Assembly: GCF_022014595.1 (NCBI RefSeq)
Contig: NZ_CP091740.1
Span: 3,584,200-3,648,199 of the forward strand
From: Solitalea lacus
GTDB lineage: Bacteria > Bacteroidota > Bacteroidia > Sphingobacteriales > Sphingobacteriaceae
DNA length: 64,000 nt
Direction of reading: 5' to 3'
Shown: positions 11,941 to 58,555 of the stretch, one piece after another
How positions within the stretch are numbered: position 1 is the first letter of the stretch
Layout: each line of letters opens with the position of its first letter
Notes under the pieces: model-generated
The model's input: only the letters and a program-made list of their open reading frames with translations
Told to the model about the DNA's origin: nothing
The model's database searches: none
Program-made: the position numbers and the translations under genes

Positions 11941-12642
11941 CTAAACTTCCCCAAGCAATGGCCGTATTAAAATTTCATCCACAACAGCTCCTTCACTCAT
12001 TTTATAAGCATTCAAAACTGCCGATGCCACATCTTCCGGTAAAACAAAACGTGATCCAGGAATAGTAGTACCCGACCAAGAGGCTGTAAGAGTTGACCCC
12101 GGTAAGACAGCAGTTACCTTTACACCTTGGTGCATTAATTCTTCGCGCAGCACTTTTGTTAGTCCCATTAATGCATACTTAGAAATACTGTATGAACCTG
12201 CAGCAACCACCGGTTTAATAGAAGCTGTTGAACAGATATTAAAAATATGCCCTTGGCCGTCTTCAATCATTCCACCGGTAAAATATTTTGAGAGATAGTA
12301 TGCCGAATACAAATTAGTGTCAATCATTTGCTCCAACATACCATCCTCTTCATCCATTACAGAACCAGGAACGTACAGGCCAACGTTGTTTACCAAAACA
12401 TCAACCTTAGCATATCTATCCAATACCTTATCAACAAAGGCAAGTAATTCATCACGATTGGAGCAATCGACCGCTTTGTATAAAATCTGAATATCAGGAT
12501 TTAGCTGCTGAAGTTGAGTACTAAATTCAACCAGCTCATTTTCATTACGGGCACAAATAGCCAAATCAAAGCCTTCTGAAGCAAAAACTTCTGCTATAGC
12601 CTTTCCAATTCCTTTTGTAGCACCTGTTATTACTGCAAGCAT
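11941..12642 (-). CDS. short-chain dehydrogenase/reductase
   Basis: This 233-residue classical SDR has the cofactor motif TGATKGIGKA at the N-terminus, the structural NNVG motif, a serine in ICSTAS, and the catalytic YSISK pair. It should reduce or oxidise a carbonyl/alcohol substrate with NAD(P)H; the substrate cannot be read from sequence. It is divergent from mlaE, with a 135-base promoter region between them. Confidence 0.88.
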   Translation of the reverse strand: MLAVITGATKGIGKAIAEVFASEGFDLAICARNENELVEFSTQLQQLNPDIQILYKAVDCSNRDELLAFVDKVLDRYAKVDVLVNNVGLYVPGSVMDEEDGMLEQMIDTNLYSAYYLSKYFTGGMIEDGQGHIFNICSTASIKPVVAAGSYSISKYALMGLTKVLREELMHQGVKVTAVLPGSTLTASWSGTTIPGSRFVLPEDVASAVLNAYKMSEGAVVDEILIRPLLGEV

Positions 12643-12777
12643 AACGTAAAAGTAAGATATTTGACTTAAAGTTACACATCCTCAATAAAGAGTTGCTTAT
12701 TTTCCAGCTATGCCGGGAACCAAGAACTATGGAATTAAGGACTGAATAATTTTCACTATTTTCGCAAAAATTATTTT

Positions 12778-13512
12778 ATGCTGTTCTACCATTTAGGAAA
12801 GTACGTTTTATTGATGAAAGCGGCGTTGAAACGCCCTGAAAAATGGAGTTTTTACTGGAAAGAAATTGCCCGTGAAATGGTTTCCATAGGTGTAGGCTCA
12901 TTGGGAATCATTAGCATTATTTCAGTTTTTATGGGAGCAGTAACTTCCGTACAAACCGCATTTCAGCTAATCAGCAATTTAATTTCACTTTCGGTAATTG
13001 GACAAATTACCCGTGATAATTCAATTCTGGAGTTAAGCCCGACCATTGGTGCCTTAGTATTAGCCGGAAAAACAGGCTCAAATATTGCTTCACAAATAGG
13101 AACCATGCGTGTTACTGAACAAATTGATGCGCTTGAGGTTATGGGCGTTAATTCCCCGGGATACCTTATCTTTCCTAAAATCATTGCCGGTGTAACGATG
13201 ATCCCGCTGCTGGTTATTATCTCAATAACACTCAGTATTTTGGGAGGTGGCATTGCAGGAGTTTTGTCTGGAGCATTATCACAAGCTGATTATATTTCTG
13301 GTGTACAGGCCGAATTTAACAACGTCATTTTGGTGGCCGGTATGGTAAAATCAATTATTTATGCATTTATTATTACTTCGGTTTCGGCTTACCAAGGGTT
13401 TTACACCAATGGAGGCGCCTTGGAAGTGGGAGAATCAAGTACCCGTGCGGTAGTAGTAAGTTGTATTTTAATTTTGTGTGCTGACTACATTGTAGCCCAA
13501 CTGTTATTATGA
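12778..13512 (+). CDS. mlaE: MlaE-family phospholipid transporter permease
   Basis: This 244-residue inner-membrane permease of the Mla/Mce-type ABC system has five or six hydrophobic segments. It shows the family features FMGAVTSVQTAFQ and SPTIGALVLAGKTGSNIASQIGTMRVTEQIDALEVMG (residues about 81-121). It moves phospholipids between the inner and outer membranes, with an MCE-domain protein as periplasmic partner. Its stop overlaps the start of the ATPase gene by 4 bases. No MCE-domain gene lies in the window. Confidence 0.92.
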   Translation: MLFYHLGKYVLLMKAALKRPEKWSFYWKEIAREMVSIGVGSLGIISIISVFMGAVTSVQTAFQLISNLISLSVIGQITRDNSILELSPTIGALVLAGKTGSNIASQIGTMRVTEQIDALEVMGVNSPGYLIFPKIIAGVTMIPLLVIISITLSILGGGIAGVLSGALSQADYISGVQAEFNNVILVAGMVKSIIYAFIITSVSAYQGFYTNGGALEVGESSTRAVVVSCILILCADYIVAQLLL

Positions 13513-42036: not shown

Positions 42037-42141
42037 ACTGTTGATACAACCATCTGTAATCAAATTTTATTATACAATGTTTTATATAGATTTTCCCTTT
42101 TGTTATTCGTTTCTATCTAGAACAGTCGTTAATAGGGTGAC

Positions 42142-42272
42142 ACATAACGTTATGCAGATTTACGATGGCAGGCTTTTCAGCACAAATGTTAATACGGAGA
42201 ACGGAACTTTCTATAACCACAAAACTGTCTGCGGAGCACGAACCCCCGCCTATTGCAATTGCGCTGTTATGT
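42142..42272 (-). other. attC10-like recombination site (after CDF gene)
   Basis: The outer cores ACATAAC (42142-42148) and GTTATGT (42266-42272) are perfect complements. The inner arms GATGGCAGG and CCCGCCTATTGC pair imperfectly. The middle (CCACAAAACTGTCTGCGGAG) is shared with attC5. Length 131 bases, within the integron attC range. The CDF stop codon lies 10 bases before the core. Confidence 0.75.
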
Positions 42273-42281
42273 GCTGCCTTT

Positions 42282-43151: not shown

Positions 43152-43170
43152 TGTCGTCTGTTAAGGTTGT

Positions 43171-43297
43171 ACATAACGTTTCAGCTTGCCGGGCGGGAAT
43201 TTTACCACAAAACTTGATTTGAAAAACTAAAATTTGATTAAACTACAAAACTGTCAACAAAGCACAAAAAACACCTTTTGGGTAGGTGCTGTTAGCG
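43171..43297 (-). other. attC9-like recombination site
   Basis: The left core is ACATAAC (43171-43177) and the right core GTTAGCG (43291-43297). CAGC...CCGGGCGGG on the left pairs imperfectly with GGGTAGGTGCTG on the right. The middle shares ACAAAACTGTC with attC5 and attC10 but is more decayed and AT-rich. Confidence 0.65.
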
Positions 43298-43309
43298 GCT
43301 GGACATTGG

Positions 43310-43876: not shown

Positions 43877-44008
43877 GTTGGGTTTTTAGCCTTGCTTGAC
43901 GCAGGTGCGAAGAAAGTTCCGCCTTTGTCCAGCGTGACGAAAGTAATTTAATGTAGTGGGATTTGCAAGTTGCACTTCGCCCGCAATTGCGGCAAGCGGC
44001 TGTTGAAC
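43877..44008 (-). other. attC8-like recombination site, left core degenerate
   Basis: The right core GTTGAAC (44002-44008) is exact, preceded by the arm GCGGCAAGCGGCT. Its partner AGCCTTGCTTGACGC (43888-43902) pairs with small bulges. The middle CGTGACGAAAGTAATTTAAT and GCAAGTTGCA match attC1. The left outer core is not clear. The right core is also the boundary of an IS91-like element. Confidence 0.6.
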
Positions 44009-44185: not shown

Positions 44186-45025
44186 GTGTTGGGACGCAGC
44201 CCGAGCACCTTTAAAAACTACGCCCTGCATGTGGCGACCATCGCCCTGCATTTTGGCAAAATCCCTACCGAACTAGATCCCGAACAGATCCACGAATACC
44301 TCTTTCTGCTTCAAAAACGATCGAAATCACCCTCCCAAACTTATTTCAAACACACCGTTTACGGCCTGCGGTTTCTGCTGAAATCGGAAGGCTTGCCCTA
44401 TTCGTTTCTCCAGCTCCCCGAAATCAAAAAAGAAAAGAAGTTGCCGGTGGTTCTGAGCAAAGAAGAAGTGTGGGAAATGCTCCGGCATTGCCAGTTGCTC
44501 AAACACAAACTGCTCATCGGCCTGCTGTATGGCTGCGGCTTGCGTTGCATGGAAGTGCGGAGTGTTCGTCTGGCCGATCTGGACTTTCACCGCAAACAGC
44601 TCAAGGTGGTGCAGGGCAAAGGTAAAAAAGACCGGTATGTACCGCTCTCGGGGCATCTGATTCGGGGATTGAAGACCTACCTGCAGGCCGAACAACCCCA
44701 GGACTATCTCTTTGGCGGGCAACCCGCCGGCCGCACCGGAGGCGATTTCGACAGCCGTTACTCTCAAAAAGGCGTTCAATGGGCGGTAAAGGAAGCCGCC
44801 CGCCGGGCCGGCATCCGCAAAGACGTGCACGTACATACACTCAGGCACACCTTCGCTACCCATTTACTCGAAGACGGCATGGACATCATCACCCTCAAGG
44901 ATTTGCTGGGGCATGAAAACATCGAAACCACCATGGAATACCTGCATGTGGCCCAAAGTGGTCGCATGAAACCCTTCAGTCCGCTCGACACGCTCTTTGC
45001 CCAATGCAGCCCCGCTTCGAAGTAG
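44186..45025 (+). CDS. tyrosine recombinase of IS91-like element 1
   Basis: This 279-residue tyrosine recombinase has the catalytic set Arg in GCGLRCMEV, Lys in KGKKDRYVPL, HTLRH, LLGHENIE and the nucleophile Tyr in TTMEYLHV. The given start is a GTG, but homology with element 2 continues upstream in this frame to about 44084. An ATG at 44074 would reach that frame only if an A-tract of 7 were 6. It overlaps the transposase pseudogene by 22 bases. A partner role in element movement is inferred. Confidence 0.78.
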   Translation: MLGRSPSTFKNYALHVATIALHFGKIPTELDPEQIHEYLFLLQKRSKSPSQTYFKHTVYGLRFLLKSEGLPYSFLQLPEIKKEKKLPVVLSKEEVWEMLRHCQLLKHKLLIGLLYGCGLRCMEVRSVRLADLDFHRKQLKVVQGKGKKDRYVPLSGHLIRGLKTYLQAEQPQDYLFGGQPAGRTGGDFDSRYSQKGVQWAVKEAARRAGIRKDVHVHTLRHTFATHLLEDGMDIITLKDLLGHENIETTMEYLHVAQSGRMKPFSPLDTLFAQCSPASK

Positions 45026-45798
45026 CTCGGGTGCTGGATCTGTTGGGAGAAGGTATCGGAAAATTGGGTCTGAACTCCTGGCAGCTGCGCACCTTATCGG
45101 CCCTCAGAAACTGCCGGACTGCTGCCTTGGGAGGTCATATAGATGCATGCGATGAATGCGGCAATCTGCAAATCAGTTACAACTCCTGCCGCAACCGCCA
45201 TTGCCCCAAGTAATTCCTTTTTCCGGTGAAAGCCCTCAGCAAGGTGTTTCGGGCCAAGTTTGTGGCCGCCTTAAGTCAACAACATATCGCTTTGATGCCC
45301 GATATGCGCAAGGCGCTCTTTGAAAAAGACTGGGTGGTATATGCCAAGCGCCCATTTGGTCATGCCGGGGCTGTGGTGGAATACCTGGGGCGCTACACGC
45401 ACAAAATTGCCATCAGCAACCACCGGCTCCGGGCCATCGATGAGCAGTCGGTGACTTTTGCCTACAAAGATTACAGGGCTCAGGGCCTCAAGAAATGCAT
45501 GCAACTGAGCCACGGTGAGTTTGTGCGCAGGCTGGCCCTGCACATTTTGCCCAGGCGCTTTGTGAAAATAAGGCATTACGGCTTTTTGAGCAGTACCTGG
45601 AAAAGGGAGAAACTCAGCCAACTGATCGGGACCCTGGGCGGCACGGTGCTAGTAAAGGACAAGCCGGTAAACAGCCTGTTGAAAAGATGCCCCTGTTGTA
45701 AAGCAGGCAATTTGGTGACCATCGCCGTTTTCGACCGGCGCGGCCCGCCGGAGGGGTACATAGGCGCGGGCCAAAACATACTTTCCTGTAAAAACTAA
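45004..45798 (+). pseudogene. IS91-family transposase, internally deleted
   Basis: The N-terminal zinc-finger region is present (CDECGNLQISYNSCRNRHCP) and stops at 45213. From about 45223 the C-terminal half follows (VKALSKVFRAKF...YLGRYTHKIAISNHRL, which holds the Y1 tyrosine). Compared with element 2, about 110 codons are missing, including the HUH metal motif, so it cannot be active. Confidence 0.85.
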
Positions 45799-45956: not shown

Positions 45957-46014
45957 GTTCAACACAGCCTTCATCGCTTGTCCTGCGGACACGACGAACG
46001 CTTAGTTATTAGGC
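45957..46014 (-). other. attC7-like recombination site, short type (58 bases)
   Basis: On the minus strand it starts GCCTAATAAC, where TAA is the stop codon of the kinase gene, and ends GTTGAAC. The arms TTCGTCGTGTCC and GGACAAGCGATGAAG pair around a short GCA loop with bulged bases. It is directly followed by IS91-like element 1. Confidence 0.72.
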
Positions 46015-47016
46015 ACAGTTTTTATTGTCCCCAAGTTTATAAATGTCATAGTATCTCCTAACAAGTCCGTTGATGAATCTTTTCAAATAATTTTCACTTA
46101 AAAATGAGTTCGACCAATTGTCGTAACGCTGACATTGAACACCTAAATAGAAAAAATATAAACTTACCCCAAGCATTGGAATAAGTCGTTTTTCTTCTGC
46201 ACTTAATGGTGTTAAAGATTCGTACCCTTGAAGAAAACGGTCAACTTTAGGTTGATAATCTTTAGCTTCATATTTCTCAATGTTGTGAAGTTGTAAAATA
46301 TAGTAAGCAATATCTAAGCAAAGCCAACCGTTTCCGCAGAAATCGAAGTCGAAAATGGTTACTTGGTTGTCGGTGGTGATGTTTAGATTGTCAAACCAAA
46401 TATCAAGATGAACAATTCCCTGTCTAATTTGCGAAATGTCGGCATTCTCAAACTCCTTTAACAGGTATATTTGAGTCGATTTCATAAAGCTCATTTCTTC
46501 TGTATCACTTTTCAAAAAGGCTGATACTTCTTTTAGTGAATCAATGAGAATTGCTTCAGGTGTATAGTCTATGCGATTTAATTTCTGATTAGTGGTTATC
46601 TTATGAAGTCGAGCTATCAGTTGTCCAATTTGGAAATGAGTTTCTTCTGAAATTATATGTTGTTTTTCACCAGATGCAAATGTAAAGAGCACAGCAAATC
46701 TGTCTCCTTCCGGTGCACTTAGTGTTTGTACGTAGTTGCTTTCATTGTCTGATAGCGGATAGGAAATGGAAATGGTATTTTCTTTTAGCTGATTCAGCAA
46801 TTTAATTTCCTCGTCAATCTCCGTTTTTGAGCGCCAATTTAAACTATACACTCTAAATACAAACTTGTTTGAGTTGTCGGTTACCAAATATGTGTCATTG
46901 ATCCCAGCTTTTATTAATTGGCATTTGGTGTCTTTGCTCAAAGAATATTTTTCCTGTAAAAACAGTCCTAAATGTGTCGCTGAAAGATTAGAATTTGTTA
47001 CTGGAAAATGTGTCAT
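46009..47016 (-). CDS. APH-fold phosphotransferase, cassette gene
   Basis: This 335-residue kinase of the aminoglycoside phosphotransferase/choline-kinase fold has the catalytic HLDIWFDNLNI (HxDxxxxN) and metal-binding IFDFDFCG motifs. An N-lobe lysine/glycine region (KFVFRVYSL) is also present. The substrate is not clear; relatives phosphorylate sugars, homoserine, antibiotics or proteins. It is a single-gene cassette whose stop codon overlaps the attC7 core, so it was probably acquired. Confidence 0.82.
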   Translation of the reverse strand: MTHFPVTNSNLSATHLGLFLQEKYSLSKDTKCQLIKAGINDTYLVTDNSNKFVFRVYSLNWRSKTEIDEEIKLLNQLKENTISISYPLSDNESNYVQTLSAPEGDRFAVLFTFASGEKQHIISEETHFQIGQLIARLHKITTNQKLNRIDYTPEAILIDSLKEVSAFLKSDTEEMSFMKSTQIYLLKEFENADISQIRQGIVHLDIWFDNLNITTDNQVTIFDFDFCGNGWLCLDIAYYILQLHNIEKYEAKDYQPKVDRFLQGYESLTPLSAEEKRLIPMLGVSLYFFYLGVQCQRYDNWSNSFLSENYLKRFINGLVRRYYDIYKLGDNKNCA

Positions 47017-48600: not shown

Positions 48601-48684
48601 TCCTAATTTAATGAATTTGCCCAGATTGTGATAGACCTTTACGTTAGCCCAAGGAGTCAATTCCTCTGAAATAGGATGGATTGT
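48432..48684 (-). other. non-coding region upstream of IS110 transposase
   Basis: These 250 bases have no gene. In IS110 elements of the IS621 type the region upstream of the transposase encodes the bridge RNA. Short pairable blocks are present (for example GGGTCCCTC/GAGGG near 48492-48508), but I cannot define a fold or guide loops by eye. Confidence 0.35.
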
Positions 48685-48816
48685 ACCTAACGTTTTGCAA
48701 ATTTGCGATGGGCGGGATTTTTACCACTAATGTTGATGCGGAGAACTGAACTTTCGGCTACCACAAAACTGTCTGCGGAGAACAAAACCCCGCCTGTTGC
48801 AAATGTGCTGTTGGCG
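48685..48816 (-). other. attC5-like recombination site (after RloB-like gene)
   Basis: The left core is ACCTAAC (48685-48691, GTTAGGT on the cassette strand) and the right core GTTGGCG (48810-48816). The arms TTTGCGATGGGCGGG and CCCCGCCTGTTGCAAA pair with few bulges. The centre matches attC10. Length 132 bases. Confidence 0.78.
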
Positions 48817-48825
48817 GTTCGGCTT

Positions 48826-49467
48826 TTATCCAAAGTGCTTTTTTAGTTCGTCTGACTGAAACAATAACTCCATTTCACACATTGCTTTTGTCGGGTTTTG
48901 GTTATCGAAACTTCCAAGAGAAATAGAGTTTTCTATAGCGGTCTTTAATTTTGGTTTTAACTTCAGATAAATGTCGTCATTTTGTTTCGTGAAGAACTTT
49001 TGTGTTTTCTCGTAACATTTTAAGTGTTTTTTCAGTTGTGCCTCCTCTCCCGAACATGCGTTGAAATATTTTGAAGTTTTTTCAAAATGAAGCAGAAACC
49101 AAAATTCAAGACAAGGGTTATTTACAGCAACAATGACATTAGGGTAATCGGCAATAAGAATTGTTCTATATTCTTGAAATGTTTTGAGTGGTGATTTTTT
49201 CCCTTTTGGGGCTTCATTTGCTTCTTTTATAATCGTGTCAAGGTCAACCAGCCAAAAAACTTTAGTAAATTCCTTTCCAGATAAATCACAAACCAATTTG
49301 TATTGTTCTTCTATGCTTTTCTTGTTCGGAATTTCGGGTTTTATACTAACACGTATATCCCTTTCGTTTCGCTTTAGCATTTGTAAATACCAAACTTCTG
49401 TTTCTCCGTCCACTACAACAGCGAAAGAAGGGTTTGGTTTGTGCGCAATCTTTTTGGGCTTTCTCAT
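48826..49467 (-). CDS. RloB-like protein, candidate defence effector
   Basis: This 213-residue protein matches the RloB family, with an N-terminal basic patch, FAVVVDGETEVWYLQML, VFWLVDLDTII and NPCLEFWFLLHFEKTS. The Glu and Asp-x-Asp arrangement is reminiscent of a TOPRIM-like nuclease core. RloB genes accompany ATPase genes in restriction and phage-defence loci. It overlaps the ATPase gene by 4 bases, and its stop precedes attC5 by 10 bases, so the pair is one cassette. Confidence 0.78.
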   Translation of the reverse strand: MRKPKKIAHKPNPSFAVVVDGETEVWYLQMLKRNERDIRVSIKPEIPNKKSIEEQYKLVCDLSGKEFTKVFWLVDLDTIIKEANEAPKGKKSPLKTFQEYRTILIADYPNVIVAVNNPCLEFWFLLHFEKTSKYFNACSGEEAQLKKHLKCYEKTQKFFTKQNDDIYLKLKPKLKTAIENSISLGSFDNQNPTKAMCEMELLFQSDELKKHFG

Positions 49468-50762
49468 GGGTTTAAATCAATGAAAGTGTCGCCCAAATTC
49501 GGTGTCCCACTTAATTTACCACTTTTGTAAGCGTTTAAAATATTTGTAGTGTTGCGAACAACAGAACTATCAAAATCAATCAATGAATATAGTTCTGTAG
49601 AGCAACTTTCTTGTTTGTCTGTGAACCATATCGCATCATTCCTAAAAATATCTTTGTTGTCTAAAATTTCTCGATTGTGAGTAGTAGCAATGATTTGAGA
49701 AGTTTTAGAATTCAAAAGAAAAGAGAGAAGGAAATGCAAATATAAATCAGGGTGTAATGAGGCTTCTAACTCATCAATTGGAAATGCTGTTGAATTTTTG
49801 ATTAGCAAAGCTAACAACCCTGCGAATCCATAGTAACGTCTCGTTCCTTGCGATTCAAATTCTAATGGCAAAGTATATTTAGTGTTGTTTACTGTATGTT
49901 CAAATTCAATGTTTACAGCCGTTAACTTTCCTCTTTCTTCCAATTCCTTAATTTTATCACTTGGAGTTTTTACTTGCTTTTTCAAAAACTCAATAAAATC
50001 ATCAGGGATTTCTTTTTCTTCTTCTTGAATAACAATGTCAGAGATATTAAAGTCTGCTTTCTTTAATATTGTAACGACATCAGATTTAGAAATTTCGTTA
50101 TTATCAATTCTTGAGGTTACAAATCCTTCTAATTCTGTTATTGTAGATACTAATGGACTTAAATAATTTTCAAACCAATCAACAACTTCTTGTAATTCTT
50201 TGAGGTCAATGTTTGTTTTTATATATCCACCAAGAACAGTATTGTTCCACAAAGTGTTAGATTCAAGTGTTTTTTCAAAAATCTTGTCAGTAGAAATTTT
50301 ACTACCAAAAGTTATTTCAGTAAATTGATTTGATAAATTGGTTTTTCTCCTAAAAACATTAGCTTTATTAGGATTGTGAAAATATAACCCCTCGGTTACA
50401 ATAGCTTTTTTGAAAAACTCTACTTCGTAAAAGTACTTAATGTCATTTTGAAAAAACTCTATAGAAATAATTGAGTTTTGGTTGGGTGTTTTTGGGTCAA
50501 ATAAGAAAGGATTAAAGTCTAACTCATTAGTTTTTTTACGCTCTGGTTCAAGAATAATATCTCTTAAAAAATCAAGAGCTTTCAGAATTGTTGTTTTTCC
50601 AGATGCGTTTGCACCATAAATCAAGGCAAGTTTTAAAACTCTTTGTCCCCCAAAATTTACGATATAGGCGTCTTCAAGGTGTGTTGATTTGTCAGCCTCA
50701 AATGAAAGAGTTTGTTTGTCTTTTATCGAGCCAAAATTTTGAACACTGAAATTTACAATCAT
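49464..50762 (-). CDS. AAA15/RloA-like ATPase, candidate defence sensor
   Basis: This 432-residue ABC/SMC-like ATPase starts MIVNFSVQNFGSIKDKQTLS. It has Walker A LIYGANASGKTT, a coiled insertion (about 170-280), Walker B/D-loop AFPIDELEASLHPDLY and the switch IIATTHNREIL. The frame is open to 50936, but the FGSIKD family start and the ATG at 50762 fix the start. With RloB it resembles two-gene ATPase-nuclease defence modules, where the ATPase senses infection. The 168 bases upstream show no gene. Confidence 0.85.
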   Translation of the reverse strand: MIVNFSVQNFGSIKDKQTLSFEADKSTHLEDAYIVNFGGQRVLKLALIYGANASGKTTILKALDFLRDIILEPERKKTNELDFNPFLFDPKTPNQNSIISIEFFQNDIKYFYEVEFFKKAIVTEGLYFHNPNKANVFRRKTNLSNQFTEITFGSKISTDKIFEKTLESNTLWNNTVLGGYIKTNIDLKELQEVVDWFENYLSPLVSTITELEGFVTSRIDNNEISKSDVVTILKKADFNISDIVIQEEEKEIPDDFIEFLKKQVKTPSDKIKELEERGKLTAVNIEFEHTVNNTKYTLPLEFESQGTRRYYGFAGLLALLIKNSTAFPIDELEASLHPDLYLHFLLSFLLNSKTSQIIATTHNREILDNKDIFRNDAIWFTDKQESCSTELYSLIDFDSSVVRNTTNILNAYKSGKLSGTPNLGDTFIDLNP

Positions 50763-51090
50763 TTTTATCTCTTTTTTTGTAAAACACTTACAAATATATG
50801 AACAAAAATAGCGATAAATAAAGTTTCTATCTAAAATATGTAAGTCGTTTACAATTTTAAGTGACTTTGGATACTTTGCCCATTTTCTGTCTTGTAAGTT
50901 CGTTGTTCGCACTGTCTGTTCTAAGCTGACCGTCAACGGGCGACGCTTGCCGAAGGCGCGATGAAAACACCTGCGTCTTAGTCTGCCGTGGCGTAAAGTT
51001 ATTAATTAGGCCGTATGTTTGTAAAGCATAAGTTCCAGGAAGTTATATTAAATTTAGAATAGCAACTCTAAAACTATAACGCTGAAACTT

Positions 51091-52169
51091 ATGCAACCAC
51101 AAATTAGTCAATTAGATTTTAGCGGTCAAAACATTTATGTGGGTTTTGACGTGCATTTAAAAAGCTGGCAGGTTACCGTTATGACCGAACTGCTCACCCA
51201 TAAAACGTTTTCACAGCCACCTAAACCGGAAGTATTACACCAATACCTCCGGCAGCATTTCCCTGGCGGCACTTATCATTCGGCCTACGAAGCCGGTTTT
51301 TGCGGCTATTGGATTCATAACCGTCTTCAGGCTTAGGCATTGACTCGATGGTGGTTAATCCAGCCGATATCCCCACCACCGATAAAGAAAAGGTGCAGAA
51401 AGAGGATTCCAGGGATAGTCGTAAAATCGCAAGATCATTAAGAAGCGGGACCTTAACACCGATTCATGTTCCTGCTGCCCAAACCCTGGAAGACCGTTGT
51501 TTAGTGCGTACCCGGGCCTCCTTAGTCAAGGATCTCACCAGGTATAAAAACCGGATCAAGTCGTTTCTGTACTTTCATGGCATTGAACTGATTGAGCCTT
51601 TTACAAAAGTTCAGTCACACTGGTCGAAGCGTTTTATGACTTGGCTGGAAAACATCGATATGCCGGAGCAAAGCAGTAAGATGGCCTTACAAATCATGAT
51701 TGCAGAAGCGAAGCATTTGAGAGCTTCTGTCCTGCAGCTAACCCGGCACCTCAAGGAATTGTCAAAAACTACCCTCTATCAGCAGCCGGCAGCCTTGTTG
51801 CGAAGTATCCCGGGAATCGGCTTACTGACTGCCATGACCCTGTTGACCGAGTTGGAGAGGATGGACCGGTTTGAAAACATGGATCAACTCTGCAGCTTTG
51901 TCGGCCTGATTCCTTCTACGCATTCCAGTGGAGAGAAAGAAGTGACCGGCGATATCACCCGCCGCGGGCATGCGGTGCTGCGCAGCGCCCTGATTGAAAG
52001 TGCATGGGTGGCCATACGCCTGGATCCTGCACTAACCAAAAGTTATCATGATTATTGCCGGCGGATGGAACCCAACAAAGCCATCGTAAGAATAGCCCGG
52101 AAATTACTCAGCAGAATCAGGTACGTATTAACAAACAAACAAGCGTATGTGTGTGCAGTGGTTCACTAA
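51091..52169 (+). pseudogene. IS110-family transposase, frameshifted
   Basis: The first part (YVGFDVHLKSWQVTV, AYEAGFCGYWIHNRLQA) stops at 51336; the protein resumes in another frame as GIDSMVVNPADIPTTDKEKV. One T is missing in GCTTAGGC near 51333 relative to the expected sequence. The C-terminal domain is intact (LRSIPGIGLLTAMTLLTELE, FVGLIPSTHSSGEKE, RRGHAVLRSALIESAW). It is either inactive or depends on frameshifting. Confidence 0.82.
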
Positions 52170-52422
52170 AACTAAACGCCATATAAAAAACATCCTTTTG
52201 AAGTGAGACTGATAAAAAACCTTGCAGTACTTCCAGTATCTGCTATAATTAGGCACCAGCTCACTATCTATAAAAAATTAAACACGGCAATGCAGCCCGG
52301 TTTACCGGTTCTGCTAATAGAAGGATGTTTTTATAGCTTTTAGTTCATTGAAAAGACAAGTAGGTCTGAAGGTTTAGGGAATGGGAGTTTTTTTAGCCAT
52401 TTAAGACAATGAATAGAGCGAA

Positions 52423-52449
52423 TGAAGCCCCTGCTATTGCGGGGCTTCA
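52423..52449. repeat. hairpin in IS110 element 2 non-coding end
   Basis: TGAAGCCCC (52423-52431) pairs with GGGGCTTCA (52441-52449) across 9 bases. It lies in the ~410-base non-coding tail of the element, where an IS1111-type bridge RNA would be expected. The RNA itself is an inference. Confidence 0.55.
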
Positions 52450-52697
52450 GCGCTGTATTCACCGTCATAAATCCTATTGCTGATGAGTTGCTCTCCAGCA
52501 GCGCCCACTTCCTCTTCGGATTTATATCACAAAGGTAACAATCTAAAAAAAACTTCCCGATCTCTTGTTTTACAACATAGAAGGTTATCAGTTCAATTTG
52601 CACGTCCAGCGCGCTTTACGGCAAGCGGGTGTTGAACTAAACCTACGGTAGCCTTTCCGCCGTTTTACCGTAGATTCGCCCTGTTAAAACTTATAGA

Positions 52698-53651
52698 ATG
52701 ACAACGAAAAAAAATCGCCGGAAGAATTAAGGTGGAATAGCTACCTTAACCGCGCTAGCCGTGAAGTTAGCGGATTTGCAGATATGCTGCAACGATTCGA
52801 GCGCAACATTTCAATTTTGGGCCGTAGTCCGCGTACCTTTTCAGGGTACAGTAGGTACGTGGCCGCCATGGCGCTCCACTTTGGCTGTCTGCCCACCGAG
52901 CTGGATCCCGAACAGGTCAAAGATTACCTTTACGAACTCCAGCAATGGAGTCAAACTCCCTCCCAAACCTATTTCAAACATACCGTTTACGGGTTACGCT
53001 TTCTACTGAAAACCGAAGGCCTGCCTTACGATTTCCTTCACTTGCCCTCTATTGCCAAAGACAAGAAGCTACCGGTAATCTTGAGCCGGCAGGAGATCTG
53101 GCGAATGTTGCAGGGGGCGCAACTCCTCAAACATAGGATCCCTCATTGGGTTGCTCTACGGTTGCGGGCTGCGTTGTGCCGAGGTACGGAGTCTGGAGCT
53201 CAAGCATCTTGATTTCGACCGCAAACTGTTGCATATCGTACAAAGCAAAGGCAATAAAGACCGCTACGTGCCACTAAGCAAACATCTTATCCGGGGCATC
53301 CGCAAATACATCTGCCTTGAACACCCCAAAAAGTACCTCTTCGAAGGGACTGGTAACCCAGAAGGCAGGGGTTTTGATGGCCGCTACAGTCAAAAGGGCG
53401 TACAATGGGCGGTAAAAACGGTGGCCAAACAGGTGGGTATCCTCAAAGAGGTGCACACTCATATGCTTCGCCACAGCTATGCCACGCATTTGCTGGAAGA
53501 TGGTGTAAACATCGTGGCCCTGCAAAAGCTGCTGGGGCATAGTAATATCGAAAGTACCATGGTTTACCTCCATGTGTGCCAGTTGCCCCAAAACCTGCCC
53601 CATAGCCCGCTGGATAAGGTGTTTGAACAATGCGCCCAGCCTGGGAAGTAG
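52698..53651 (+). pseudogene. tyrosine recombinase of IS91-like element 2, frameshifted
   Basis: It is similar to the recombinase of element 1 throughout: FERNISILGRSPRTFSGY, then GCGLRCAEVRS, SKGNKDRYVPL, HMLRHSYATH, LLGHSNIE and STMVYLHV. An extra C near 53142 (ATCCCTCAT) breaks the frame. An A-tract of 8 right after the ATG at 52698 also puts the start in the wrong frame. Both breaks suggest decay, although the A-tract break is shared in kind with element 1. Confidence 0.8.
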
Positions 53652-54733
53652 CCGATGTACTGCAAAAGGTAAACTGCTACACGCCTAACTACACCGTCCA
53701 CCAACAAAAGACACTCAGGGCTATCCAACTCTGCCGCACCGCCGCACTGGGAGGCCATGTAGATGCCTGCGATGGCTGTGGCAATATCAGCGTGAGCTAT
53801 AATAGTTGCCGGAACCGCCACTGCAATAAATGTCAGGGACATAAACGGGAAGAATGGATACAGGACCGGCAGGCCGAGCTGTTGCCATGTACGTATTTCC
53901 ACGTAGTGTTTACCCTGCCGCAGGAATTGAATGGATTGGCTTTGCACCGGCCGGATCTGGTTTATGCAGCTCTATTTCGTGCCGCATGGCAAACGCTGCT
54001 ACAGTTTGGTAAAAATGAGGGATTACAATTGGGGATGATTGCCGTGCTACATACGTGGGGGCAGAACCTGTCGCTCCACCCGCACCTGCATTGCATTGTA
54101 CCGGGTGGAGGCATGGATGAAAGAGGCCAATGGAGGCGCAAAGCACGTAGTGATAAATACCTGTTTGCAGTTAAGGCGCTGAGTAAAGTGTTCCGGGCGA
54201 AATACGTGCAGCAGCTCCGGCAAGAAGGTATTGAAGACCAAACCCTGTTGGAAACCCTGTTCAAAAAAGAATGGGTGGTATATGCCAAACGTCCTTTTGG
54301 AGGCCCCGGCCAGGTGATTGAATATCTTGGCAGGTACACCCATAAAGTGGCCATCAGCAACCAGCGACTGGTAGAGGTTAACGAGGAAGAGGTGAGTTTC
54401 CGTTACAAGGATTACCGTCAGAACGGGGTTACAAAGGTAATGGTCTTGCCTGTCAATGAATTTGTACGCCGCTTTGCCCAACACATCCTGCCGAGGCGTT
54501 TTGTGCGTATCCGACACTATGGGATTTTGAGCAGCAGCTGGAAGCGTGGCCATTTGCAGAAACTCCGGGAAAGCCAGAAGATGGTTTCAGTAGAGGCTAA
54601 AATGGTCACCCTGATCCGCAAATGTCCATGTTGTAAAACGGGTACGTTGGTCACCATTGAGGTATTTGGCAAACGGGGGCCACCTCAAACTGATTTCCGG
54701 GTGGCAAAAATTGTTCCTGTGCCGCAAAAGTAG
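53630..54733 (+). CDS. IS91-family HUH transposase
   Basis: This 367-residue Y1 transposase has a zinc-binding N-terminus (CDGCGNISVSYNSCRNRHCN), the HUH metal motif in LSLHPHLHC (His152 and His154), and the catalytic region YLGRYTHKVAISN. A C-terminal CPCCKTG zinc knuckle follows. It moves DNA by rolling-circle transposition, and IS91 relatives choose GAAC or CAAG-type targets, which fits the GTTGAAC boundary. It overlaps the recombinase frame by 22 bases. Confidence 0.9.
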   Translation: MRPAWEVADVLQKVNCYTPNYTVHQQKTLRAIQLCRTAALGGHVDACDGCGNISVSYNSCRNRHCNKCQGHKREEWIQDRQAELLPCTYFHVVFTLPQELNGLALHRPDLVYAALFRAAWQTLLQFGKNEGLQLGMIAVLHTWGQNLSLHPHLHCIVPGGGMDERGQWRRKARSDKYLFAVKALSKVFRAKYVQQLRQEGIEDQTLLETLFKKEWVVYAKRPFGGPGQVIEYLGRYTHKVAISNQRLVEVNEEEVSFRYKDYRQNGVTKVMVLPVNEFVRRFAQHILPRRFVRIRHYGILSSSWKRGHLQKLRESQKMVSVEAKMVTLIRKCPCCKTGTLVTIEVFGKRGPPQTDFRVAKIVPVPQK

Positions 54734-55609: not shown

Positions 55610-55636
55610 TGTGTCTGTATGGTCTATTAGAGTTCT

Positions 55637-55780
55637 GACTAACGTTTCAAGAAAAGATACGCTTGCCGAAGGCGCGATGAAAACACCTGCGTCTTTGTCC
55701 GCCGTGGGGTAAAGTTATTAATGGTTTTGTGATTTCCTAGTTGCACCTCCACCGCGCTTGCGGCATAGCGTGTGTTATGC
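55637..55780 (-). other. attC2-like recombination site
   Basis: The left core is GACTAAC (55637-55643) and the right core GTTATGC (55774-55780). The left arm ACGCTTGCCG pairs with CGGCATAGCGT on the right, leaving one extrahelical base, a known feature of attC sites. The centre (GGCGCGATGAAAACACCTGC) is shared with attC1 and attC4. Confidence 0.8.
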
Positions 55781-55791
55781 GCAATAAAGCC

Positions 55792-56394
55792 TCACTTGCG
55801 AGGTGCTTTAAATGAAATTTTAGCTCTTACTGGCAATGGAGGTCTGTCCGCTGTATCTTTTTTAATGTATTCAAGAATGTCTGCAGAACAAGATTGTTGT
55901 TTTTTTACATTTTGTGTAAGATAGAATTCCAGTCTCTTAAGCTCATGCTTTGCCTTTTCTGTCAAACGAGGGGGAATGAATTTTATATACGTTGTTTTAT
56001 TACCATCAAATGAACTTATTAAATAGCCAGCGCCACAATAAATATGAGGTGTTGTGTCAGCCTTGAACTCATTAGGCTTAAATCGGGCTAATGAATCTAA
56101 AATTTCAAATGACTTCATTACAGTATCTGGGAGTTGATTCCCTGTTAATGAAAATAATGTGTCATTTTTTGAAAATTGAATGCAAAATTTCCCAGAACTG
56201 TCAATCTCAAAATGTTCTCTAAGATGAAGGATAAATTTCCTTGGGTTGTCTAAGTCATCAATTGATTGAAACACGGAAGTCAAAGTAAAATGCTTAATCG
56301 AATTTTCCCTTGTAGAAGTCTGTTGATTACAGGAGTCCAGCAACAGGATAAAAACAAGAAAAATTATTGAGGTTGCTTTCATTTTATTGCGCAT
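55792..56394 (-). CDS. cassette-encoded lipoprotein, function unknown
   Basis: This 200-residue lipoprotein has the lipobox ILLLDSC at the end of a strong hydrophobic segment. The rest is soluble, with FTLTSVFQSIDDLDNPRKFI and YIKFIPPRLTEKAKHELKRL. The frame is open to 56439, but the ATG at 56394 lies inside the attC1 core GTTATGC, a typical cassette start; 56382 (MKATSII) is also possible. No family recognised. Confidence 0.72.
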   Translation of the reverse strand: MRNKMKATSIIFLVFILLLDSCNQQTSTRENSIKHFTLTSVFQSIDDLDNPRKFILHLREHFEIDSSGKFCIQFSKNDTLFSLTGNQLPDTVMKSFEILDSLARFKPNEFKADTTPHIYCGAGYLISSFDGNKTTYIKFIPPRLTEKAKHELKRLEFYLTQNVKKQQSCSADILEYIKKDTADRPPLPVRAKISFKAPRK

Positions 56395-56524
56395 AACGGG
56401 CGACGCTTGCCGAAGGCGCGATGAAAAAGCCTGCGTCATAGTCCCGCCGTGACGTAAAGTTATTAATTAGGTGGTAAGTTCAAAGTTGCATGTCGACAGC
56501 GCTTTTGGCAAGCGTTTGTTAGGC
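56391..56524 (-). other. attC1-like recombination site (best example)
   Basis: The left core is GCATAAC (56391-56397) and the right core GTTAGGC (56518-56524), both extended by GCGC. The inner arms ACGCTTGCCGAAGGCGC and GCGCTTTTGGCAAGCGT pair almost fully. The spacers between outer and inner arms differ in length (GGGCG against AA). The stop codon of the first cassette gene (TAA) is in the right core, and the next gene's ATG is in the left core. Confidence 0.85.
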
Positions 56525-56719
56525 GCTGGGTTTTTCTTCCTTCTTTAAGCCACTCCTAAATATGAGTATTCCAGCTAACATCATTGCACCCGTACCTATT
56601 TCTGCTCCAAATGGAATTTGGTCAAAAGGCAACGTAAAATAAGAATTCAAGAGTTTAATGAGTTGAATGGTCGAACTAATAAATAAGCCACCGCCAATAA
56701 TAAATTTAATCCATTTCAT
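56519..56719 (-). CDS. small two-TM cassette protein, function unknown
   Basis: This 66-residue protein has two membrane helices (about 4-24 and 40-58) and a charged end (KKEEKPSA). It is the first cassette after the recombinase, between the attI-like core and attC1. Its stop TAA lies inside the core GTTAGGC. Confidence 0.68.
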   Translation of the reverse strand: MKWIKFIIGGGLFISSTIQLIKLLNSYFTLPFDQIPFGAEIGTGAMMLAGILIFRSGLKKEEKPSA

Positions 56720-56793
56720 ATTATTCAGTTTGATTAAGAGAGCATCTATCTGTCTGTATTAAAAATATTGAGTTTAGGTAGACTTAACCTTGC

Positions 56794-56851
56794 GCCTAAC
56801 GAGTGGATAAACGCAGGTCCTTCTATTCTCTTTTGGTTTAGTTGCGTTTAT
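56794..56851 (-). other. attI-like site with recombinase-side repeats
   Basis: GCCTAAC at 56794-56800 (GTTAGGC on the cassette strand) is a simple core without an attC stem partner on its recombinase side. Just beyond it are GGATAAACGCA (56805-56815) and, inverted, TAGTTGCGTTTAT (56839-56851). The same repeat occurs before the recombinase gene at 58566. This is where a first cassette would insert, but function is inferred. Confidence 0.55.
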
Positions 56852-56929
56852 ATTCCATTTATCAGGTCTCTTACTTTTTCCCTATTAACACCCCGTCTGG
56901 CCTGATAGATGCCTAAATTACATTATTTT

Positions 56930-58555
56930 TTAAATATCCAACTTGTCCAAGGGACTTTTAATTTGGTCAAAACCTTTAGTGGTAATATGGGTGTATATTT
57001 CTGTGGTTTTACTACTGCTATGCCCTAATAAATTTTGAATATACCGCAAATCGGTGCCGTTCTCTAGCAGGTGTGTGGCAAAGGAATGCCTTAACGTATG
57101 CATACTAATCTTTTTCTTGATTCCGGCTTTTTGCGCGGCGTCTTTTAGCACTTGCTGAGCACTTCTTGCAGAATAGGGCTTGGGCTCAGAGCCAGCCGTG
57201 AATCCTTCAAACAGCCAGTAATTCGGCTTAAAGACCCTGTAGTAATTTCTTAAAATGATTAATAATTTTTCTGACAACAGGGTGTAGCGATCCTTTTTCC
57301 CTTTGGCCTGTTCTATTCGTATTTGTTTCCGCTCCGAATCTATATCATTTACTTTCAAGCTGACAAGTTCACTAATTCTCAATCCGGCCGAATAGGTAAG
57401 CATAATCATTGCTTTATGCTTCAAATTGGAAATCGAGGCAATCAGCAACTTTACTTCTTCTTCACTTAAAACGACTGGCAAAGTCTTTTCTTTAATGGGA
57501 CGCTCTATAAAGTAAAATTTACGCTGACCTCCTAAAACACGTTCGTAATAGAACTTTATACTATTTATTGCCAAATTCTGATATGAGGAGCTTACCTTTC
57601 GTTCGGTAACGAGGTAGCGTAAAAAACTAATTATTTGTTTTTCATCTATAGAGTTGATGTCATGCTTTGGAAAATGATTAATGAATTCTTCAAACAAACT
57701 TTTATAAGTTTTTATGGTTGCCGCACTGTATCGTAACTCGATTAATTTCTCTTCATACTCTTTAGGTGCATTTCGGTAGCTGGCCAAATCAAACGGCGTT
57801 AAACGTGAAAGTCCTTCCCGTTTATTCTCTTCTTCAAAAGAAAATCTCATTCCAAGTTCTTCCAGCATGCCTTTTAATTTGGTAAGAGTGTGTTCTGAGT
57901 AGGCTACTGTCCACCACCTATTTTTTGAATCCCAATGATAGTAAGGTAGTTTCTTTACACAACAGGCAAAGGCATCTGAATAATTAGAAATGATTTTGAG
58001 TCTTCCCGAAGCAGTTTTAATGACCCATGCCTCATTTTTATCTAGTACTTTAGTTGTAGATCCGGGCCGCGTAATCACTTCTTCGTTAATATTAACAGAT
58101 ATTAGTCGATCTCCAAAATATTGTTTCAACACATCCAGATTTCCGGAATAATTGGGTATTTGCCAATAGTATCCCGCAGAATCCCATCTGCTGTATTTTA
58201 GTTGAGCAACGAACTTAACATCAGCCTCATTTTTGGGCATTTTTAATATAATTTTTCGGCCTATTACCTCTATTGTGACTCCCTTTTTCTCTTTGGTGTC
58301 GGGTTGCCTCATTTTAACGGGTGTTTCTTCTGATTGATTAGGGGTTTGGGGGAGTGATAATTCAGGCTGTAAATAGGGAAATAAAGCAAGAAGTTGCTTG
58401 TAAGCCGCTTTTGTATAAGGAATGTGCCAGGCTCTGTGGGTTTGGCTCCAGCGGGCATCTTCTATGATCTTTAACTTCTCCAAAAATTCATTATTGTACG
58501 GAAAAGTAATCTTAATCCGGTACTCTCCACGGTGATACAATTTTGAAATCTTCAT
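56930..58555 (-). CDS. tyrosine recombinase with three HARP-like repeats
   Basis: The 541-residue protein has a C-terminal tyrosine recombinase domain (from about 265) with the catalytic set R393 (SAGLRISEL), Lys in AKGKKDRYTLL, H486/R489 (MHTLRH), H512 (LLGHSSS) and Y521 (EIYTHI). The N-terminus has three repeats (about 11-62, 100-150, 185-238), each with a strand, a helix and the motif RW(D/S)xxxRxWxIPY. This resembles the HARP DNA-annealing module of SMARCAL1-type helicases. It lacks the ~20-30 residue insertion before MHTLRH that defines classical IntI. It lies at the head of the cassette array, same strand, and is the candidate array integrase; a plain Xer-like recombinase is the alternative. 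Confidence 0.85.
   Translation of the reverse strand: MKISKLYHRGEYRIKITFPYNNEFLEKLKIIEDARWSQTHRAWHIPYTKAAYKQLLALFPYLQPELSLPQTPNQSEETPVKMRQPDTKEKKGVTIEVIGRKIILKMPKNEADVKFVAQLKYSRWDSAGYYWQIPNYSGNLDVLKQYFGDRLISVNINEEVITRPGSTTKVLDKNEAWVIKTASGRLKIISNYSDAFACCVKKLPYYHWDSKNRWWTVAYSEHTLTKLKGMLEELGMRFSFEEENKREGLSRLTPFDLASYRNAPKEYEEKLIELRYSAATIKTYKSLFEEFINHFPKHDINSIDEKQIISFLRYLVTERKVSSSYQNLAINSIKFYYERVLGGQRKFYFIERPIKEKTLPVVLSEEEVKLLIASISNLKHKAMIMLTYSAGLRISELVSLKVNDIDSERKQIRIEQAKGKKDRYTLLSEKLLIILRNYYRVFKPNYWLFEGFTAGSEPKPYSARSAQQVLKDAAQKAGIKKKISMHTLRHSFATHLLENGTDLRYIQNLLGHSSSKTTEIYTHITTKGFDQIKSPLDKLDI

Follow-up and report, generated by a model that had tools for sequence, protein, structure and literature searches.

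We analysed a window of 64,000 nt (the whole stretch of DNA considered here) from the genome of Solitalea lacus (contig NZ_CP091740.1), on the minus strand of which an open reading frame extends from an ATG start through a stop codon (58555..56930) and encodes a protein of 541 aa. On the basis of the reading frame, of Pfam and NCBIfam matches and of its homologues, the gene was annotated as that of an integron-type tyrosine recombinase fused to HARP-like units. The core-binding and catalytic domains lie at about residues 265-539 (56939..57763, minus strand) and were recognised in Pfam as Phage_integrase (E 2e-42) and SAM_4. The full catalytic set of tyrosine recombinases (R, K, H-x-x-R, H and Y) is present: R393, K418, H486, R489 and H512 are invariant in 44 relatives and Y521 is nearly so. 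The core matched the Xer/XerA model NF040815 with 218 bits, and the best structural match of the full-length model was VchIntIA (2A3V).

Three repeats had been proposed in the N-terminal part of this protein, at residues 11-62, 100-150 and 185-238. An HMM built from the N-terminal units of relatives, leaving the window sequence out, recovered all three with close limits: unit 1 at residues 2-60 (58376..58552, minus strand; iE 1e-21), unit 2 at residues 100-151 (58103..58258, minus strand; iE 3e-10) and unit 3 at residues 185-229 (57869..58003, minus strand; iE 6e-6). Over 1000 shuffles of residues 1-250 the top score was 9.3 bits, and the same HMM gave zero matches in 17 HARP-less integrases, IntI and other recombinases. 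AlphaFold predicted the same fold three times (beta-beta-alpha-beta-beta-alpha), with a pLDDT of about 85-95 across most of each unit, and pairwise comparison of the three units gave Z scores of 4.1-6.0. The presence of three N-terminal repeats is thus confirmed.

The earlier note had also likened these repeats to the HARP domain. A profile search against PF07443 (HARP) gave a divided answer: the N-terminus of a congener matched (E 7e-5, 22.7 bits), under the gathering cut-off of 25 bits, and the 541-aa integrase itself gave no match in Pfam even with E values of up to 10 allowed. With E limited to 1, six of 44 units matched PF07443 and 20 matched DUF5710 (PF18974; best E 0.0026), weakly in both cases; DUF5710 and HARP, two small families, may be related. 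When the unit profile was compared with all PDB sequences, the top match was the HARP domain of SMARCAL1 (4O66, E 0.021), which was also the first, weak match of a predicted unit in Foldseek (E 0.29, probability 0.72). The VIA-align table for the unit does not list 4O66; its best rows, i.e. eIF1, MotA and topoisomerase IV, have Z scores of 5.0-5.7, which is the chance range, and the damage-recognition domain of XPB scored 4.3-4.5. Finally, the profile of the integrase units matched the N-terminus of a SNF2-type helicase (3.5e-11), the same N-terminus matching PF07443 weakly (E 0.0018). Individually weak, the subthreshold PF07443 match, the PDB profile search, the Foldseek match and the SNF2 match jointly favour a kinship of the units with HARP, as judged from sequence profiles and predicted structures.

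In SMARCAL1, HARP is a structure-specific DNA-binding module (4O66 title; PMC4035279), and its HARP domains are portable, giving annealing-helicase activity to other SNF2 proteins or motors (PMC4035279). The units described here resemble it (PF07443, 4O66) in motif, length and the possibility of tandem copies, and perhaps in predicted fold; they differ from it in being fused to a recombinase, with no SNF2 motor, and in their Pfam score under the cut-off.

Just 3' of the integrase gene lies a putative attI (56792..56880, minus strand, limits approximate), proposed from the sequence and from a counterpart in two congeners, with its insertion point GTTAGGCGC at 56800-56792. An array follows on the same strand, with attC sites of about 135-140 nt. 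The attC of the first cassette (56388..56527) has an R'' (GCGCCTAAC) that is the exact reverse complement of the start of its own cassette (GTTAGGCGC ... GCGCCTAAC); that of the second cassette (55634..55783), which shows a small insertion near R', has an R'' (GCGCATAAC) that also matches its own cassette start. Further attC sites were found at 48682..48819, at 43168..43300, where the site folds weakly, and at 42139..42275, together with a weaker match at 50928..51056, apparently a remnant cut by an IS, and a partial match at an IS edge (43894..43996), all of them on the minus strand. An Rfam search of the window returned no match. A putative GTT insertion point 3' of the integrase gene is shared, at the sequence level, by the window and the two congeners, and an inverted repeat (TATACGCACC/GGTGCGTATA) is present in the attI regions of the congeners. 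In both congeners this integrase, again with three repeats, occupies a different chromosomal neighbourhood, with cassettes following at the same relative place.

The array is interrupted by IS110- and IS91-type elements. Inserted in it, at 51091-54733 and 44186-45798, are pieces of IS110-type transposases and IS91-type Y2 transposases, each of the latter preceded by a tyrosine recombinase gene, one of these recombinase ORFs being broken. A pair of genes within the array (48826-50936), encoding an AAA ATPase and an RloB-like protein, adjoins an attC site and matched AbiL phage-defence models (PADLOC AbiLi 3e-76, AbiLii 7e-17), and a gene of the APH-type phosphotransferase family lies within the array region (46009-47016).

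Sites were detected with covariance models trained on the arrays of the HARP-integrase family, which superseded a hand-written attC scanner that had given no excess over shuffles. As the attC model (R2) missed a class 1 integron site (locus L170), it is lineage-biased, and a lack of matches elsewhere means little. The attC helices had a covariation score of 0.581, vs 0.145 after shuffling and no more than 0.097 after sliding, and the arms R''/R' and L''/L' covary. The bottom strand gave the more stable fold in 43 of 55 sites, and the alignment displays a spacer of unequal length (5 vs 8-9 nt); a consistent single bulge, i.e. an extrahelical base, was not found in it. Across 64 cassettes from many loci, the cassette start agreed with its own R'' at 6.28 of the 7 nt beyond GTT, vs 3.36 of 7 for the preceding attC and 2.95 of 7 for shuffled partners, and 56 of the 64 matched their own R'' at 6/7 or better. 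This identity is the trace left by circular cassettes joined at GTT, a mark of integron cassettes.

The distribution of this arrangement was assessed at several levels. An order-level search retrieved the two congeners and single-unit integrases of about 350 aa, the majority of them with an attC array located on the integrase strand. Eighty relatives were obtained from a search of named genomes, including Flavobacterium, Algoriphagus, Cyclobacterium, Kaistella and MAGs of Bacteroidales; almost all contain one to three HARP-like units with varying spacing, units being apparently missing from three of them (L079, L095 and L103) and a few ORFs being broken. In these 80 loci, all 141 attC sites lie on the integrase strand, 138 downstream and three upstream, for 315 kb of downstream and 641 kb of upstream sequence scanned. 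Integrase and array kept one relative strand and order in 44 loci, and the first attC was found at a median of 1055 nt from the integrase. The earlier note had asked whether homologues bearing the repeats always sit beside attC-like arrays, or are mostly ordinary prophage integrases: attC sites are present in 38 of the 42 loci for which 1.5 kb or more was available downstream, and the strand-specific linkage recurring across loci speaks against the latter.

Among 395 genomes of the phylum, attC was detected in 57 of the 64 with a HARP integrase and in 111 of the 331 without (OR 16, p 4e-17, Fisher test, in which shared ancestry is ignored and the attC model comes from the same family). At the class level, 69 genomes contained attC; a HARP-type integrase was found in 35 of them and none was detected in 34, and canonical IntI occurred in a single one, that of Solitalea lacus.

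The absence of the IntI-specific insertion, also asserted beforehand, was borne out. The distance between the KGxKxR and HxLRH motifs is 62 aa in the 541-aa integrase and 58-64 aa in its family, vs 100 aa in IntI1; in the alignment with VchIntIA, which leaves out the insertion, VchIntIA skips from 182 to 247 while the 541-aa integrase advances from 440 to 466. The score against TIGR02249 was 223.5 bits, from a split match, for a curated cut-off of 265. In a quick tree, the canonical IntI formed one supported group (SH-aLRT 99) with the HARP proteins outside. The 541-aa protein is therefore not a canonical IntI. It shares with canonical IntI (IntI1, VchIntIA; TIGR02249) a tyrosine recombinase adjoining a (here putative) attI and an attC array, the R''/R' rule of the cassettes and 2A3V as best structural match, whereas it lacks the insertion of roughly 40 aa, scores under the TIGR02249 cut-off, falls outside the IntI clade, bears HARP-like units at its N-terminus and has its array 3' on the integrase strand. 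With XerA, XerC and XerD it has in common the layout of core-binding and catalytic domains without the IntI insertion, the alignment with XerA being strong; unlike them, it is linked to attC arrays, not to dif, and carries the HARP fusion.

Most probably, the 541-aa protein acts as integrase in an integron of Bacteroidota type, with an accessory HARP module and a downstream putative attI and attC array. The gene, its repeats, the array, the rule for cassette ends and the association across genomes come directly from the computations; we infer from sequence data that this integrase itself, and not one acting in trans, would move the cassettes. Its Xer-like core, kin to the canonical IntI clade yet outside it, would insert and excise gene cassettes through recombination between the GTT of the downstream attI and folded bottom-strand attC hairpins, so that cassettes would end up on the integrase strand, 3' of the gene. 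The one to three HARP-like units may form an accessory DNA-binding module, most likely recognising or stabilising folded or partly single-stranded attC, although the identity of this DNA as their substrate is speculative. That HARP would help the attC hairpin to form or to hold is attractive, binding to duplex attI being the main alternative. HARP in SNF2 proteins acts with ATP hydrolysis, whereas the 541-aa integrase has no ATPase, and active annealing is hence not expected. A broader proposal, in which we place slightly less than even trust, is that Bacteroidota have their own classes of integrons with integrases devoid of the IntI domain and that the largest of these classes uses a HARP module, acquired from annealing helicases or common to both, to bind the site in its folded single-stranded form and to help it fold or stay so.

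The role of the units can be examined against HARP-less integrases of Bacteroidota, of about 280-320 aa, which adjoin attC arrays at nine loci (L129-L134, L138, L143 and L145) amounting to ten genes, L131 having two. They share with the 541-aa protein the same core, the same type of attC, the arrays being matched by the same model, and the lack of the IntI insertion; they differ in the absence of HARP and in an array divergent from the integrase, as in classical integrons. No separate HARP unit or protein was found to be encoded within the stretches of these nine loci. In this limited sample, the presence of HARP coincides with a co-oriented array lying downstream, and its absence with a divergent one; locus L139 keeps the co-oriented downstream layout with a truncated unit.

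This partition, seen in the loci examined, agrees with a reading in which the units would attach to attI as a duplex or to arm-like sites, in the manner of the arm-binding domains of complex tyrosine recombinases, with a possible tie to the location of attI 3' of the gene. The inverted repeat in the attI regions of the congeners points the same way, as does the gain of N-terminal arm-binding domains by mobile-element recombinases (PMC8138268). The predicted fold of the unit appears to resemble HARP and, at the sensitivity used, none of the known arm-binding domains, and the attI is itself putative; we rate duplex binding as rather unlikely, while giving it serious attention.

Lower still stands the idea, raised in the earlier note, that the repeats substitute for the IntI insertion by gripping the extrahelical bases of attC, which we consider doubtful. 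It draws on the fact that nearly all family members lack the insertion and possess HARP, as well as on the structure-specific DNA binding of HARP in SMARCAL1. Against it stand the nine HARP-less loci, where integrases equally deprived of the insertion adjoin attC arrays: neither HARP nor the insertion is seemingly needed to keep an attC array, so that HARP is no general requirement for the use of attC, and its exchange for the insertion loses force. The copy number of one to three and the variable spacing of the units are also easier to reconcile with an accessory role than with a fixed contact.

Another possibility is that a canonical IntI moves the cassettes in trans, the 541-aa integrase being a mere neighbour and the array a CALIN. 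Two genes above the TIGR02249 cut-off do exist in the genome of Solitalea lacus (2095261-2096199 and 2766556-2767482; L164 and L165), which also has several attC clusters with no adjoining integrase. However, no attC match was found within about 10 kb of either gene, canonical IntI was met in only one of the 69 class-level genomes with attC, namely this one, and such action in trans would not explain why integrase and array keep a fixed strand and order in 44 loci. We hold this scenario to be improbable. As to the clusters, they are CALIN-like and lie near 0.42, 1.40, 1.92 and 3.72 Mb (L166, L167, L168 and L169), and no integron-kind integrase was found beside them. An ordinary prophage or mobile-element integrase lying near an array by chance, a reading that the Xer/XerA-like core might suggest, is scarcely credible and was rejected in view of the recurrent strand-specific linkage to attC (141 of 141 on the integrase strand, 138 downstream) in loci of several families, as well as on a plasmid of Chryseobacterium.

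An integron integrase with its own attI and array, as favoured here, departs from current descriptions, in which the IntI insertion is regarded as essential and diagnostic for integron integrases (PMC9024848, PMC8138268) and serves to identify IntI in surveys (PMC9024848, PMC9668308). In Bacteroidetes, earlier surveys reported only In0 and later one complete integron in Salinibacter (PMC9024848). Among open-licence papers, we found none on HARP-fused recombinases or on such Bacteroidota integrons. The loci described here resemble the CALIN and In0 of IntegronFinder surveys in presenting attC clusters without a recognised IntI, but differ from them in that an integrase adjoins the array, only without the domain that surveys require. 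The integrase would represent a non-canonical class of integron integrases, which searches based on the IntI domain would file as CALIN; if the broader proposal above is true, many Bacteroidota CALINs would be complete integrons or their offshoots. Should insertion-less integrases be the ones that act on Bacteroidota arrays, complete integrons have escaped the surveys of a large phylum, including on a Chryseobacterium plasmid, and the structural rule for recombination of folded attC needs revision. HARP-bearing, HARP-less and canonical enzymes found by similar attC sites would offer a natural comparison by which the recognition of a single-stranded hairpin by a recombinase could be put directly to the test.

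The Chryseobacterium plasmid (L172, NZ_CP041688.1), from rainbow trout, carries a single-HARP integrase (11998-13041) with five attC sites downstream. In the type strain of Flavobacterium psychrophilum (L052), a single-HARP integrase is accompanied by two attC sites just downstream.
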